A stretch of 64,000 nucleotides of DNA, from assembly GCF_000165425.1 (NCBI RefSeq), contig NW_001799211.1, forward strand, positions 458,732 through 522,731. Direction: 5' to 3'. The position numbers and the translations under genes were made by a program. This DNA comes from Paramecium tetraurelia. Taxonomy: Eukaryota > Ciliophora > Oligohymenophorea > Peniculida > Parameciidae. Under the pieces are notes generated by a model that saw nothing but the letters and a program-made list of their open reading frames with translations, was not told the origin of the DNA and ran no database searches. Numbering within the stretch: the stretch's first letter is position 1; every line of letters begins with the position of its first letter. Of this stretch, positions 1,147 to 9,462 are shown piece by piece.

Positions 1147-4100
1147 TCACAATTTGACCCACTTGGCTAAAATGAATAGCAAGGCATCAATCATTATTGG
1201 TTTCTACAAGCAATCATGAAATTGTAGTTTCTTTATAGCGAGTTTGCTCTCTTCATCTTAAAATCCAATCAATCCAATTAGTCTTGTATCTTTCTAATAT
1301 TCTGCCAATACAGCCTTTATTTTAGCACAATCAGAACTGAATTGTTCATTCACAAACTCCACTCCCACGAACACGATGTGATACCCTTTACAACAGGTCT
1401 TAAATTGTGAAAATTGCTTCCTTAATTAATCAACAATATGCAATCTCTGCATTGTGTAAATGTACGGAATTTTGAGATTGCTCAGTTGATGAGATATAGC
1501 ATATAAATCAAAGTCATTCTATTCGCAAATTAGAACCTTTGGACACTAAAATTGAATTACTATAATATACTTGACATTTGTAAACGAATTACTACTACTT
1601 GATTCTTTCCATCTTTTCAAAACAATCCAATAACTCATTTGGCCCTAGATTTACTGAGGATATCCTCATCGAAGAATACACCGATGAACGTCCTCCAAAA
1701 GTTAATAGGGAATCTCTTTATTTAGACGAAAGCTATTATGAAACTTAAGGACTCAACCTTGATTAGATAATACTAACCGAAATTTTTCTTGCTTTTGGTT
1801 CTTTAACACGAATGAAAGTATCAAGAAATTAAGAAGGTTTTTGCTGCTTTTCTATTTTCTCTATTTTATCGTTTATTTGAAGACTTGATTTGCTAGATTG
1901 TATATCACCATCACATTCTCCTTTGTTCATCTCATCCTTAGAGTCTGATGATGAGGAACTCTATTACGAGTCGTCCTATTCTGAGATTTAAGAAACAGAG
2001 TAAGATTTGTCAGGCTATTGATTGTCAGACGCTTCAGATTGTCCAAACTAAGGCAACTGAGGCTCAATCTTGCCGGATATAGTCTCTTCCTGAGATTCTC
2101 TTTTCATTTTCTTCAGTTTCTCCTACACCTAAATTCTGCATATTTCTGTTAACCTTTATGACTAATGCCTCTTGAATTGACTGCTCTAACCAAACACCTA
2201 ATGGAATTGAGACTTGTTTGCAACCAACGCAGATTACCTTTTTTGTGTTAGTTGCTTATTGAAATTGGGATTCTCATTTTTTATCAATAAAATAAAGTAA
2301 AACTAAGTGCCATCGCCAGTCTTTATTGAATTAAACTCAAAAGGCATGATAGCCACAGCCATAGATATGTAGAATGCCGTAATTATGGAAAAACAGTATT
2401 ATTTAGATGTTGCAACAATATCTATCACCTATTTACTAACTAAAGTCTGTTGTTTTAGATGCTTCAGAGTTTGTTCGACACTTTCGAGAATCCCTTCGTT
2501 TACACTTTAAGCCATGACTTTGATGATAATTTCAATGTGATCAGTCAATAGAGGTGATTTTTAACAAGAAATCTCTATGCTCCCATTTATTGTAACCTAG
2601 ATAGACTTGACTATTAAAATAACACAAATATTAATACTTAACAAATTCAATACAATTTGTCTAACTCTATTGGGATCAGTTCTGAGAAACATTGGAACAT
2701 TTTATTTGATATGTACCTGTATATTTAGTCCTCTAAATAGTGCTTATGCCTTTATAATGTTTAGACAATCTGAAATGAATTCTCTGGTGTGTATGTCCAT
2801 TAAATTTCTGTCTAATTTATTCTTTTTATGCATAGTGACATAATCCTAAAAGTCATTTGCTGTGCTAATTAACAGTTTGCACCCTGCCAATGCTGGATCA
2901 ATGTATTTGGTTTGGAGATCCTAATTAACTTCTTTCTATTTTAGATTATTATAAATGAAATACTTAGACCAATTCTAACATGGACAAAGTACAATTCAAC
3001 GGTTCTTTCATTTTCTGGGAAATGGTTTGAATAACGTCATCACTATTTTTTAGGTATAATTAAAGTTGGATAATGAATGGTTCTTCGGTTAGATCGTTTA
3101 TGTACAAAATGATTTGAGGTTTATTTGAGATGATAACTGGATTCAAAATAACTTAAGTGTAAAGTTTATCTAAAATGCTTAAATTGGAAAATTACCTTTT
3201 TTTATATAAATTTTTAAAGAAAAATCTAAAGCAAAATTAGTTAAATTAAACTTTATATGCGAAAAAGCAAGGAGATGCTCAATCAAGGTTTACACTTGCA
3301 TCTTCCTACAAAAGAATTGTATCTCTTTCTTTTCCTCAGGCTAAACGTTGTCAAATTGGATGTTCTAAGTTCAAATGCATTAATATATTAGTACTCAAGG
3401 GTTTAAGTGAATTTGATGAAATTACTGATGTCTTTACTTCTGTGGAAGCTCGGGAGTATGGTACAGGATTCTTCTGAGAGCAACCCAAAATCATACAATT
3501 CCAGTTGAGTCAACTCTGGATTTAGTTGATCATTGATTAAGACGATGTGAGACATGAATGAATTTATTATTCTAATTGGTTGCTAAGCATTTTCAAATAT
3601 GTAGATTCCACATTGGAAATTGATCAACAATAATTCATACTGTTCCTCTAGATGTTTCAAATTATTCAGATTTTCGAACTCGTCATTAGCAATATCTGCA
3701 ATGTTATTTTTTTTATTTTATGGTTCAGTCATTTCCCTCTGGGTGTTTATTTGAGCAGCCCTCTATGTGAGCAACGGGCTCAAATTCCTAGTCAAAAGAG
3801 CATCATTTGAATTTCGAGTTTAATATAAATGATAAAGCAACAAAGATTAAATCACTACATGTCCAAAGATTATCCTAGTAGATCCCATAACTTCGATGGT
3901 ATTAGTGAATGCTGGGAATCTAGACAGTATTATTCAAATTGTACCTGAATAGAGAGTAGAAGAGTGAAAACAGTATGACCAAAGTTCTGCACAGCTGAGA
4001 CTCGATTGCGATCAAAAACAATATCATGATTCCATAAATTTCAAACGCCTAACTCCTTTGATCGTACTCACTGGTGTAGATACGGTCATAATCAGTTTCA

Positions 4101-4352
4101 AACCATAATATTATTAGACTGAAATATTTGAGCATTGTGATTGTATTAATTAGAAGGGTTGTTTCTCTTTTCAATTTGCTCATTGCAATATGAAATGCTA
4201 TCATCAATAAGACTTGGATCTAAAAGGATGAGTTATTCCATTACCAATATGCGATACACAAAAATCAATTTTTGGCCCTCTATCTAGTAATTCAAAGCCT
4301 GGACTATGGTTATGAGTATGTCGAAACATTAATACAAAGACACGATTGTCAT
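1147..4352 (-). CDS. Membrane hybrid histidine-kinase-like protein A, phosphoacceptors lost
   Basis: About 1,000 residues in the order: hydrophobic N-terminus with several membrane segments, a middle region, a histidine-kinase dimerisation helix, an HATPase-like domain, a low-complexity linker and a C-terminal receiver domain ending AKWVKL-TGA. The H-box reads ISQKMKEPLNCT, so the usual His is Gln (codon at 3015-3017). The N-box is NLLIKSIQVT, with Ser in place of the Asn-Ala pair. The receiver phospho-Asp is Gly (VFVGVEF, codon 1363-1365), although the late Lys of QKP is kept. Introns at 2936-2963 and 2611-2637 restore the frame. It is a tandem paralogue of the next gene, 105 bp upstream. 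Start at 4352 rests on an inferred intron near 4240. I infer a pseudoenzyme. Confidence 0.75.
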
Positions 4353-4457
4353 TGTGGATTTCCACAAAATATAATTCTAATATGTCTCTGGGTTCAACTT
4401 AAAGTAATTTGATAGCATGTGCATTATTACTATATAAATTATTTATTAATTTAACAA

Positions 4458-7400
4458 TCACAATTTCACCCACTTTGCTAATATAAACAATAAAGCATCT
4501 ATCATCAATGGTTTCGATAGAAAATCATGAAATGGCAGTTTCTTAATAGCATTCCTGTTGTCGTCATCCTGAAACCCTATTAATCCTATAATCCGTGCTT
4601 CCTTCTTAAATTGAGAGTTTATATTTTTAATTAAGTTGCACTGTTCCCCTAATTCCTCATCCACGAACTCCACACTAATAAATATCAACTAGTATCCCTT
4701 GCAACAAGACTTCTCAACCTCATAGGCTGTTTTCAACTTCTCATGTATTTAGGTTCTCTACATGGTGTAATCATAATTCATCCCAATGTTGCCAAGTTAA
4801 TGAGACACAGCATACAAGTCGAAATCATTTTATTCGCAAATCAATATCCTTGGACACTTTAAAATATAACACTATATGTCTTACTTAACACTTTTAAGTA
4901 TACTTCTGTTGTTTAATTCTTTCCATCTTCTCAAAACAATCAATTAAGTCATTTGGTTGCATAATACTAGCCGAATATCTCATTGACGAGAACATACTTG
5001 ATCTTCCCCCAAAGGTTAAGATTGAGTCTCTTCTGCTGGGCGTTATGTTATTATTGTAAGTATAGGCTATCGATTATTGCATAACCACCAAAGGAGATTC
5101 ATTTTCATTCAACTTTCCAGTCTCATTTGTCTATTTGTAAAGGAATTAATCTAATTGAACTCCTACATCTAAACTGTTATGGGAACTTTCATTTTCTCCT
5201 TTGGATTCCTTCGATTCCTGTTCTGAAACTATAGAAATATCAGATTTTGAATGAGAAATTATCTATTTGATCTTTTTACTTTAATCCTATGACTTTATGG
5301 TCTTAAAAGTAGGCAAAAAGTCTACATCAATGTCCCCTTGGGATGTTCTAGGTACTATGAAACGAGATTGGTTTTATTATCCAAAAGATGTGGATAATTT
5401 AATTGCTGAATCTTTCCTTTGGGATTAAGTGGCTAAAACTTAAGATTGTGATTGTAATTTTTATTATGACTATTGTGACTACTACTACTTATTTTTCTAC
5501 TTTTCTAATTATCCTTGGATTGTTATGCTTGCTTTATCAAATAGACTTTATCGGGATGATTGATGTCTTCTGAATCCTTGATCAATTGAAAAGGACTACT
5601 TAAAGCTTTGCTGTTAAAAGCTGAGAGCAGATTGTCTTTTGAAATTTAATTGTTATGAGAAATTCGGATTTTTGTTTTAAATTTAAATTTTGAAACAAAA
5701 CTCTTCATGATCTAAATTTTTCTCGTAATGATACTCAAAAGGGATTGTTGAAATACTGAGTGATAAACAAAATGCTATCAATATAGATTGACTATATTTT
5801 CGACCTGCATTTGCCAAATCAATCATTGTAGAGGCCAACAAATTCTGGGATTTAAAAAACCTCACAGTTTTATCAATTGTTTTTAACACCGATTAATTAA
5901 TTTCTGATGCATTCACTTTAATCAAGAGTTCAATGTGATCCTACATCAAAGTGGATTTGCTGGCTGATACAGTGATAGTTCCATTTATTGTTGCCTAAAT
6001 CGAACTTACCAATAAGTTTAACAAGATCTATCTTAATCTATTGGGATCTGTCCTAAAAAAAGCAGGTACATTGTGTCGGACATTCACTTAGATCTGCAAT
6101 CCTCTGAATAAAGCCTAAGATTTTATTATGTTTATTGAATCAGTAATGAATTCCCTAATTTATGATTATTTCTAATGGGTACCTTATGTGAACATCCATT
6201 TGGCATAGTTCCAGCTTCCCTTTCTTTCGTATCGTAACGTAGTCAAGAATATCATTGGCTGTACTGATCAATAATTTACAACCTGCAAGTGCTGGGTTCA
6301 AAAACTTTTCTTGGATTTCAAATGGAACTGAGTGCTAAGTTGAAGTAGAATAAAATACAATCGTAATTTCCAACATTGAAATTGTGCAATTCAAAGGTTG
6401 TTTAATCTTCTATGATATATCTGAGACTAATTAATCACTATTTTGATTATATTAATTCAATTATGTCATGAAGGGTTCATCTGTAAGATCTGATACAAAT
6501 AGTATTAATTAAGGTCTGTGTCTTTGTAATATGGGGGAGAGTACAACACTTGTATATAGATTATCTATAGTCATATGATTATGTTTATATACCTTTTTTG
6601 AGGTATATTTTAAGTGAGAAATCTATCAAATTTTAACATTGATTGAATTTGAAATGCTGGAAGGGCAGTAGATGTTCAATCAGGGTTTTAATTTTCATGG
6701 ATTTATGAAAAAATTGGACCTCTTTTAATCCAATGTTTCCATTCTCATAATTTATGTTCTAAGCACAATAATAATAAGAAAAATTCATACTCAAGTGTTT
6801 GCATAAATTTGATAAAGTTTCCGATGTCCTTGCTTCTGTGGAATTTAGGCAACACTGTTAGATTGTCCTCAAAGGAAATCCCAAAGTCAAACATTTCATA
6901 ATTCAAAAACTCATCACTTAATTGATCATCCTTCAACACCAGATGGGACATGTAAGGATTGATAGATTTAACTGCACTCTGCAAGTTGTCCAGAATGAAT
7001 ATGCCTATTTGTATATTATTTAAGACATTCTCGTAAAATTAGTCTAGGTTCTACCTCTCAGTGTCCAATCTGTTTTCTTCTGATACTGCAACTTCGTTTT
7101 CTTTAAGTTACTGCTTCAATCTCTGGGTGACATCATAATTTTATTGATTTATGTAGGTAGAAAGTCGCAATTATTAATTCAGTTGAGAATGCCTATTACT
7201 TTGCATAGGAACATAGTTTTTTGACTACTGACCCAACATTACAAGTTGATTGTTTAATTTCTACTTCTGTTGCGGCAGTTATAACAAAAATATTTGAATA
7301 GCCACATGGATTAATACTATCCTAATTGAAGAAAGAATATCAATTTTATTTTAGAATAGCTAGATTCTATTCTGTTATGATATATTTATACCGAAAAAGA

Positions 7401-7746
7401 GAGTAGAATAACGAAAATAATAGAGATATTGTTTAACATATTTAAGATTCCTGCAATATCACCAAAGCCAACAACAGGATGTATATTTCAGCTGTATAAC
7501 TAGTATAAGGTTTCTATATTTCATTAAATAAATAATAGTCAGTTTCAGTCCAGCATATAAAAAGTGAAATAAAATATATAAATGTAGCAACATTTAGAAA
7601 CCCATTCCTTATTTTTCTTAAACACTTAAAAATATGCCAAAATACTAACAGTAATCCAGCTTGAACCTACAATTTTAATATATGTCATACAATTATTCTA
7701 GCTATCATCATTATTCTTGTTCCATCCACACTTTAAGTACTTACAT
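4458..7746 (-). CDS. Membrane hybrid histidine-kinase-like protein B, phosphoacceptors lost
   Basis: Paralogue of the preceding gene with the same domain order and alignable throughout. Shared blocks include WTETDYY, FSLFYSLFRY and the membrane segments at the N-terminus, RTDPNRLRQILLNLL in the HATPase-like domain, and HDFLSKPLMIDALLFILAKW at the C-terminus. The H-box is SQKIKQPLNCT, with Gln encoded by TAG at 6410-6412. The N-box Asn is Ser. No DxGxG is found where the G1 box should be (KVNASEINQ instead). The receiver Asp is Ser (IFISVEF, codon 4674-4676). Micro-introns of 24 nt occur in the first membrane segment and after the H-box. Start ATG at 7746 follows an in-frame TGA. The conserved fold with lost catalytic residues suggests a scaffold or sensor role. 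Confidence 0.75.
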
Positions 7747-8509
7747 CTACGATATTGATTATCATATCAAAAAGTTGGTAAATTGAAATAATATTTATTA
7801 CTTTGGTGTGCTGATAAATGTTCGTATAAGGCTATGAGTAGATGTAAAAATAACCCTTAAGATTGTCTATCATAAGATTAAGAGATTTATATAAATTATT
7901 TTATTTGATGTGACATAATTAAATATCACAAGAAAAATATATCAATACACATAACTTTATTCTAATTCGAAATAGATATCACAAATATTATGAAGATAAA
8001 TTTACTAAAATAATTAAAGACTTAATGAGAATAAGAATAATCTTGTACATACTATCTATTAACAACTATTATCTCTTAGCTATAAAGTAACATTTCAAAA
8101 TTTATAGGCATAAACTAAATTAGAATTTCTAATCCATAAGTAATTTATAAATTGAATTGATTAAATGAATTTGTTAATCAATTCATTGATTTCTAAGTCT
8201 CTCTTTCCCATTGAAATTAATTTAAATCAACAATGAATTAAGTGGTTGTGGGGCTGACCAAAATCTGGTTCTACTAATCTGAATAAAGGGAGGGAATGTA
8301 ATGAGAATAGAAATTTTAAATAGCAACTTGGACTTTTTATAATTTAATTTATAATTCAGTATACAAAAAACAAATAGTAAAATTGATATTTAGATTTTGT
8401 TCAAAAATGCGTCATAAAAAATAAATTAGATCTTGAAGAGCGATATTGTGACTAAGTTTATATTGAATATGTGGAGATTTATATTTGTCAATATTTTAAT
8501 TATTTTGTC
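7747..8509. other. Intergenic, divergent 5' flanks
   Basis: About 760 bp of very AT-rich DNA between two divergently transcribed genes. I see no conserved coding frame, RNA gene or repeat. It is long for this compact genome and may hold the promoters of both neighbours. Confidence 0.6.
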
Positions 8510-9462
8510 ATGGATACTCAATTTTTTACAAGCAGCACAAGGTAAGATTTGAAATCTATTGAATTAGCATGAGTTCATCATCTTCCTCAAGTTCGAGGAA
8601 AGGATCATAAGAATGCTTTAGTGATTTTGGAATCGAGAAAAAATCTAGGAAAAGTAAAAAAAGTGCTAAACGAAGTTGCTCCTTTGCCTTAGGTTCAGTG
8701 ACTGAAGAATCAGAGGACATTGAAGATTATTTGGTATGACAACCTTTGATCTGATATTAGTTGAGTCGTTTCACACACATCTAAATGCCCAATGATAATA
8801 ATGAATTTAGAGAACGAATTCCCCCAAGATTAAAAAGGACTGAAAAATATCAAAAAAGACGAGCTTCCTTGAGTCCACATGGAACAAATGGTTTAGCAAA
8901 GGTTGAAGAAGTGATTGGAGAAGATGATGAATTAAAAAACAAATGCATCTTTAAACTTGGTTTAATGTTGGACAAAGATGAATTCAATGATAAGAGAAGA
9001 AGACTGTTATAGTCTAAAGATAGAATTAACATTGAAAAAGCAACAACAACAAATTTAACAATTTTAGAAGATGCCCAAGAAAATGTCAAAGAATTTCAAT
9101 AACATGTCATGAGTCCGACTTATAAATTAAAAGTTGATGAAGTTGACTTCGAATAAGAAAAAAAACAATGGCAACCTCAAGAAATAATAGAAGTCATTGA
9201 AGAAGAAAAACCAGATAATGTAGTCAATATTAAAGAAAAGGAAATGTTTTAAAAAAGTAATAGCATTATAAATAACATCATAGTTAAAAAGATTTTACAT
9301 GAAGAAAGAGATTTCTTAAAACGAATTTTAAAAGGGGAGTTAATTTAATAAGAAGATATTGTAAAAAAATAATAATTCCAATCAGAAGTAGGTGAAACAT
9401 ATTGGAATTAATTAATTTAGGAAGCTGAAGAATAAGTCAATAGTGATGAAGACTAGTAATGA
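8510..9462 (+). CDS. Uncharacterised serine-rich, charged protein
   Basis: Three exons, 299 residues. Introns at 8542-8567 (26 nt) and 8734-8760 (27 nt) give a continuous frame to TGA at 9460. After a short start comes a run of serines (MSSSSSSS), a Lys/Arg/Ser basic tract, an acidic patch (EESEDIEDY) and the segment FRERIPPRLKRTEKYQKRRAS; the rest is charged and probably helical. It has no signal peptide or membrane segment. No family was recognised. The ATG at 8510 was chosen because its short first exon splices in frame; the alternative ATG at 8569 would begin at the serine run. Confidence 0.65.

Follow-up and report, generated by a model that had tools for sequence, protein, structure and literature searches.

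We examined two adjacent genes in a 64,000-nucleotide (nt) stretch of the Paramecium tetraurelia genome (RefSeq assembly GCF_000165425.1, contig NW_001799211.1, positions 458,732 to 522,731 of the forward strand), referred to here as the window, in whose coordinates positions are given unless a contig is named. The two genes, A and B, follow one another head to tail on the minus strand, with B upstream, then 33 nt, then A, and their open reading requires genetic code 6, in which TAA and TAG specify Gln. Both products follow the same order, namely a hydrophobic N-terminus, a PAS-like region, DHp helices, a CA region, a weakly conserved linker, a conserved motif just before the receiver (the pre-receiver motif), and the receiver itself. 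The spliced models and homology thus bear out the hybrid histidine kinase layout that a preliminary description of the sequence had assigned to the pair. The long open frames mentioned there need qualification, as six introns and one further segment of 26 or 28 nt have to be taken out in each model, and the start of B, formerly set at 7746, is now placed near 7873. Intron lengths are 22-29 nt in the models of all eight genes of the family introduced below, which, like the use of code 6, is in keeping with Paramecium. The features of the two genes are as follows:

1147..4424, minus strand: gene A, pseudo-hybrid histidine kinase of 1031 residues (spliced model, homology and intron rules)
4244-4220, 3944-3920, 3195-3170, 2963-2936, 2637-2611 and 1570-1546, minus strand: introns of A (spliced model)
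3832..4424, minus strand: hydrophobic N-terminal region of A, residues 1-181, with about 5-6 membrane segments (hydropathy)
3084..3660, minus strand: PAS-like region of A, in two halves, residues 239-413
2801..3083, minus strand: DHp-like helices of A, containing H-box Gln436
2273..2800, minus strand: CA (HATPase-like) region of A, with N-box Lys554 and without a G1 box (2524-2489)
1543..1708, minus strand: pre-receiver motif of A, LTFGGRSS..SS...PNxLxDCFEKMExxK, residues 854-900 (genome search, conservation)
1150..1542, minus strand: pseudo-receiver of A, with Gly960 in place of the phospho-Asp (hhalign)
4458..7873, minus strand: gene B, paralogue of A, 1076 residues (final spliced model)
7690-7667, 7391-7367, 6592-6565, 6358-6335, 6182-6155 and 4884-4857, minus strand: introns of B (spliced model)
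7279..7873, minus strand: hydrophobic N-terminal region of B, residues 1-182 (hydropathy)
6479..7056, minus strand: PAS-like region of B, residues 257-430
6200..6478, minus strand: DHp-like helices of B, containing H-box Gln453
5671..6199, minus strand: CA (HATPase-like) region of B, with N-box Ser571 and without a G1 box (5922-5887)
4854..5022, minus strand: pre-receiver motif of B, residues 899-945 (genome search, conservation)
4461..4853, minus strand: pseudo-receiver of B, with Ser1005 in place of the phospho-Asp (hhalign)

Although A and B are adjacent as described earlier, they are not merely a tandem pair, as the searched genome (69 Mb in 231 contigs) holds at least eight such genes: A and B, a second tandem pair (A2 and B2) on contig C172, and single genes on contigs C175, C160, C191 and C164, which we name by their contigs. 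A protein search with B found 25 places, 15 of them in the eight family genes and 10 weaker ones elsewhere; the four weaker places inspected (C153, C9, C27 and C183) were ordinary kinases. With the receiver of A as query, 10 of 12 places fell in the same eight genes and the remaining two were weak, and the pre-receiver motif, searched at E-values up to 1, gave eight matches, one per family gene. Eight is a lower bound because such searches score the best candidates only. In the final models, seven of the genes, C191 among them, read through intact over their full length of 976-1076 codons.

The family has replaced the residues of phosphotransfer in both its kinase and its receiver parts. Where the family H box aligns with solved kinases that read SHEIRTPMN (family profile, best E-value 4.4e-20), A reads TISQKMKEPLN and B reads DISQKIKQPLN, so that the His is Gln in both proteins as first described (Gln436 of A, CAG at 3017-3015; Gln453 of B, TAG at 6412-6410). 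The same position is Gln in all eight genes, and since it is spelled CAG in two, CAA in one, TAG in four and TAA in one, the amino acid has been preserved during codon turnover. The N-box Asn is replaced by Ser in B and B2, by Lys in A, A2 and C164, and by Thr in C175, C160 and C191; the earlier reading of Ser in both A and B holds for B (Ser571, 6006-6004) but not for A, which has Lys554 (2608-2606) once the in-frame 27-nt intron at 2637-2611, kept in the unspliced reading, is removed. The DxGxG of the G1 box is absent from the alignment of the eight genes, again as noted before for the pair, with A reading IKVMAQSVNEGI and B reading IKVNASEINQSV. At the receiver phospho-Asp position we confirmed Gly in one protein (Gly960 of A, GGA at 1365-1363) and Ser in the other (Ser1005 of B, AGT at 4676-4674), and across the eight genes the site is Gly in five, Ser in two and Ala in one, the C164 residue being taken from an earlier gene model. 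By comparison, Asp is kept in all 30 of the best-scoring ordinary receivers of the genome (the best 30 of 50 listed). The claim that every phosphotransfer residue is lost was too strong, for while the His and Asp sites are replaced, the receiver Lys is retained (QKP or SKP). A splice model that would restore the H-box His or the receiver Asp was sought and none was found, the predicted introns all lying more than 50 nt from both codons; for the H-box codon this is the case in each of the eight genes. Judged from these replacements, the family would be capable of neither ATP binding nor phosphotransfer of the usual kind.

Despite these losses, sequence comparison identifies the DHp, CA and receiver domains as homologues of the corresponding domains in ordinary hybrid kinases. 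The DHp-CA family profile matches 14 distinct PDB sequences at E-values of 0.001 or less, RetS among them, and the pseudo-receiver aligns with 30 ordinary receivers of the genome at an hhalign probability of 98.4 and an E-value of 7.7e-15. Chance resemblance to a kinase or receiver was considered and is ruled out by the best PDB match and this hhalign result. Pfam models score the three proteins scanned (A, B and C175) below their curated cut-offs, with HisKA at 13.8, 18.3 and 22.9 bits, respectively, against 26.9, and HATPase_c in B at 19.5 bits against 26.4; because of these low scores, automatic annotation probably misses the family. Support from profiles for the PAS-like region consists of a weak PAS_8 match in B (E-value 0.089), and a profile of that region from seven of the eight genes found no PDB match up to an E-value of 0.1.

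The ordinary hybrid kinases that this genome also encodes provide a direct contrast. Two of them, L034 (C155:448285) and L009 (C153:533455), are about 28-36% identical to the family across DHp-CA, and L034 also shares the order DHp-CA-receiver; both differ in keeping the H-box His, NLLSNA and DTGxGI, and L034 has the receiver Asp. In a maximum-likelihood tree built from 33 DHp-CA rows (the eight family genes plus 25 of the 38 loci L009-L046, after dropping repeats and loci that did not show both motifs in a single frame), a branch supported at 100/100 separates all eight family genes from the rest, and their stem measures 1.34 changes per column. Rooting is by midpoint only, the family's point of attachment has poor support (80/74), and the program flagged long branches in other parts of the tree. 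Among 124 genomic places matching Pfam HisKA at E-values of 0.001 or less, the H-box residue is His in 123 (116 at first pass, and seven of the other eight on re-reading) and Phe in one. The eight family genes are all missing from these places; as the HisKA model favours His and does not recover them, the 123 of 124 should not be read as a full count of dead kinases. The Phe-bearing place, L141 (G000:C173:448602-448682; C173:448610), has an otherwise ordinary H box, MLNTFSFELRTPLN, and is possibly another, separate dead kinase.

We estimated selection from the ratio of nonsynonymous to synonymous substitution rates (dN/dS) by the Nei-Gojobori method with code 6 on paralogue pairs, with bootstrap intervals. 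The ratios were 0.050 (0.036-0.068) for A-A2, 0.058 (0.046-0.074) for B-B2 and 0.079 (0.061-0.098) for C175-C160, and the six measured genes have been under strong purifying selection since duplication, with none of their ratios near 1. Comparator kinase pairs with an intact H box gave 0.038-0.111 in five of six cases and were saturated in the sixth; the six were compared over 400 codons, one of them over 336, and their duplication ages may differ. Selection on a fold dead for signalling chemistry, as put forward in the preliminary description, is therefore supported by these ratios together with the invariant H-box Gln. By segment, and in the order A-A2, B-B2 and C175-C160, dN/dS was 0.044, 0.013 and 0.028 in DHp; 0.036, 0.014 and 0.063 in the receiver with the pre-receiver motif; saturated, 0.051 and 0.037 in CA; and 0.063, 0.198 and 0.131 in the membrane part. 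The PAS-like halves of C175-C160 were less constrained (0.098 and 0.152).

The distribution of invariant columns among seven genes (C164 omitted) follows a similar map. The pre-receiver motif of about 47 residues is the most conserved segment (24 of 47 columns), and DHp (33 of 85), the receiver (49 of 131) and CA (48 of 167) exceed the PAS-like halves (20 of 89 and 15 of 86), the membrane part (29 of 181), the long linker (12 of 188) and the first linker (3 of 57). On this map the DHp helices have been kept despite their lost chemistry, and in known kinases these helices dimerise and dock receivers.

We think it probable that A, B and their relatives are maintained, membrane-anchored pseudo-hybrid kinases serving as non-catalytic dimeric scaffolds that bind and tune other proteins. 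Because evolution has kept the dead proteins intact, they probably signal by partner binding rather than by phosphate transfer. As dimeric signalling scaffolds, they would have a membrane and PAS-like part that alters the shape of the DHp-CA-receiver body, and this body would bind and tune other proteins by hetero-dimerisation or docking, the likeliest partners being some of the cell's many ordinary hybrid kinases or receivers. The roles suggested at the outset, as dimeriser, ligand sensor or decoy, may likewise apply. A broader proposal, which we hold tentatively and consider somewhat unlikely in its entirety, is that the ciliate lineage turned a whole phosphorelay receptor into a non-catalytic class with a new output motif, which was multiplied by duplications and may hetero-dimerise with some of the more than 100 kinases with an intact H box.

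Several points weigh against the scaffold reading. All comparisons were made within one genome; the dN/dS values are approximate, as the three pairs have a dS of 1.0-1.4, and another five pairs, among them those involving C191 and C164, were saturated. The homology of the receiver is challenged by the lack of any Pfam Response_reg match in the three scanned proteins and of any PDB match to the receiver profile at an E-value of 0.001 or less. Structure prediction for receiver and CA pieces from two-row alignments gave unusable models (mean predicted local distance difference test scores of 45.8 and 48.1), and with models below usable confidence, retention of the folds is argued from homology. 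The C164 gene (L008, G000:C164:407875-411657) carries a frameshift in its CA region around contig position 409385, and may be decaying or misassembled. In addition, an expanded 'atypical histidine kinase' family has been reported in ciliates (PMC3341644), which may or may not include these genes. To these points are added the strong conservation of the pre-receiver motif and the unexplained junction within the PAS-like region, each of which leads to an alternative of its own, the motif to the main one.

Since the pre-receiver motif is conserved at least as well as the kinase domains, the output could lie there, with the kinase body acting as a structural spine and the motif recruiting an effector, or being phosphorylated by a Ser/Thr kinase, upon a change in the membrane part. 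The motif is Ser-rich, follows a linker that is hardly conserved, and was matched in family genes only, all of which would suit such a role. We nevertheless regard this alternative as unlikely, as DHp and the receiver are nearly as constrained, and phosphorylation of the motif or binding to it is only hypothetical.

A second alternative is that the models are wrong and that the N- and C-terminal parts are separate genes, split at a stretch of 24-28 nt that starts with TA after ...TLE(GAG), where the first PAS-like half ends, and that is removed in all eight models. The junction falls at the same place in the other six family genes (L002, L007, L004, L005, L006 and L008). In the two window genes the stretch is as follows:

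3368..3393, minus strand: anomalous segment of A, 26 nt, bounded by TA, whose removal is needed for the conserved frame
6762..6789, minus strand: anomalous segment of B, 28 nt, bounded by TA, whose removal is needed for the conserved frame

We searched, from 33 nt before the segment to about 18-27 nt after it, for possible GT-AG introns 15-60 nt long whose excision would preserve the frame on both sides and leave the message free of TGA. None joins the frames in A, B or C191, and an intron of the form GTA..TAG occurs in B2 only, being absent from the other seven genes. In A2, C175 and C160, GT-AG removals exist that end in GAG, while in C164 the only ones cut conserved codons before the GAG; an earlier gene model had placed a GTT..GAG intron further downstream in C164. 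Excision from one TA to another restores the frame when 26 nt are taken out of A, A2 or C164, or 28 nt out of B or B2, although other lengths also work in B, B2 and C164; C191 needs 33 nt and C160 needs 51 nt, and no such excision works in C175. The main size peak of Paramecium internal eliminated sequences has been given as 26-28 bp (PMC3464196), and the TA ends and size of the segment fit such a sequence in five of the eight genes (A, A2, B, B2 and C164). By eye, none of the 10 ends in these five genes fits the end consensus TAYAGYNR, and the 26/28-nt segment may or may not be a retained internal eliminated sequence. While the missing introns speak for a split, the protein is conserved on both sides of the junction among the eight genes, no common downstream start codon was seen, and removal of 24-28 nt after the GAG restores the frame in all eight, with a length that varies by sub-group. 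We consider separate genes improbable, and the residue and dN/dS results are free of the junction stretch, which lies outside the coding sequences used.

More improbable still is a hidden or changed catalysis, in which phosphate or nucleotide is handled by other residues. Retention of the receiver Lys, along with several family-invariant His, Asp and Glu, could be taken in its favor, but the N box, the G1 box and both phospho-sites have been lost together, a Gly or Ala at the receiver site could not be phosphorylated, and Ser would imply another chemistry. Finally, plain decay, with the genes as pseudogenes being lost, is highly improbable despite the C164 frameshift, as dN/dS of 0.05-0.08 at dS of 1.0-1.4 excludes it for the six measured genes, and there are seven full-length frames and an H-box Gln kept across changing codons.

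Eukaryotic receptors with degenerate histidine-kinase modules occur in plants, as in the subfamily 2 ethylene receptors and the kinase-like regions of phytochromes, with different sensor domains; to our knowledge, none of these has lost all three catalytic modules together. The published pseudo-histidine-kinases that we found are mostly bacterial, whereas A, B and their relatives form a eukaryotic family that lacks the kinase, ATP-binding and receiver residues together, yet is conserved like other kinases. A literature search at the level of titles and abstract openings, covering few subscription journals, found no ciliate pseudo-histidine-kinase described. If the family does control ordinary ciliate hybrid kinases, it would exemplify signalling through a two-component fold that has lost its activity, and could be studied by RNA interference.

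Bacterial systems may serve as precedents, by analogy, for dead-kinase partners. In Caulobacter, DivL is likewise a PAS-containing histidine kinase protein with its phospho-His replaced, by Tyr, and is reported to bind a response regulator and to have no kinase or phosphatase activity (PMC4211667). According to the same report, DivL keeps its N, G1, F and G2 boxes and weakly binds a nucleotide analogue (PMC4211667); the ciliate family, unlike DivL, has lost N and G1 and has a dead receiver attached. RocA of Streptococcus is described as a pseudokinase that works through the real kinase CovS, but it is bacterial and the available portion of its description mentions no receiver (PMC7028121). In Corynebacterium, a ChrS pseudokinase variant is reported to hetero-dimerise with the active paralogue HrrS, although that variant is a laboratory-evolved frameshift and not an old family (PMC9491836). 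Bacterial pseudo-receivers are described as receiver homologues without the phospho-Asp (PMC12632262), and differ from the ciliate ones in that the latter are fused to a pseudo-kinase. For bacterial HisKA domains as a whole, a missing H-box His is given for 0.9% (722 of 76,471; PMC12632262).

Turning to the neighborhood of the two genes, the best copy of a gene at 8755-9462 of the window adjoins B2 (C172:426609-427298, 88% identity), and for this reason C159 and C172 look like duplicated blocks. Beside A, at 35-865 on the minus strand, lies a gene for a cyclic-nucleotide-binding protein (Pfam cNMP_binding, E-value 1.4e-12); 76% copies of it lie next to the C164 family gene and on C178, and no copy on C172 was found among the matches listed. 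These copies may reflect a recent and an older whole-genome duplication.

Between the two genes lies one further feature:

4425..4457: spacer of 33 nt from the stop of B to the start of A, almost the same in A2/B2

Inspected by eye, this spacer and its A2/B2 counterpart, which is one base longer, disagree at one of 33 places, and this near-identity stands beside a dS of 1.1-1.4 in the flanking genes. A single protein joining B to A through a GTGATT..TATAG intron across the B stop was weighed but not adopted, as the result is out of frame with the A start and the intron loses its AG in the duplicate pair. The last intron of A (1570-1546) is identical to that of A2 (G000:C172:419471-419447) at all 25 positions, with flanking exon DNA 84% and 90% identical, and this may reflect gene conversion or constraint.

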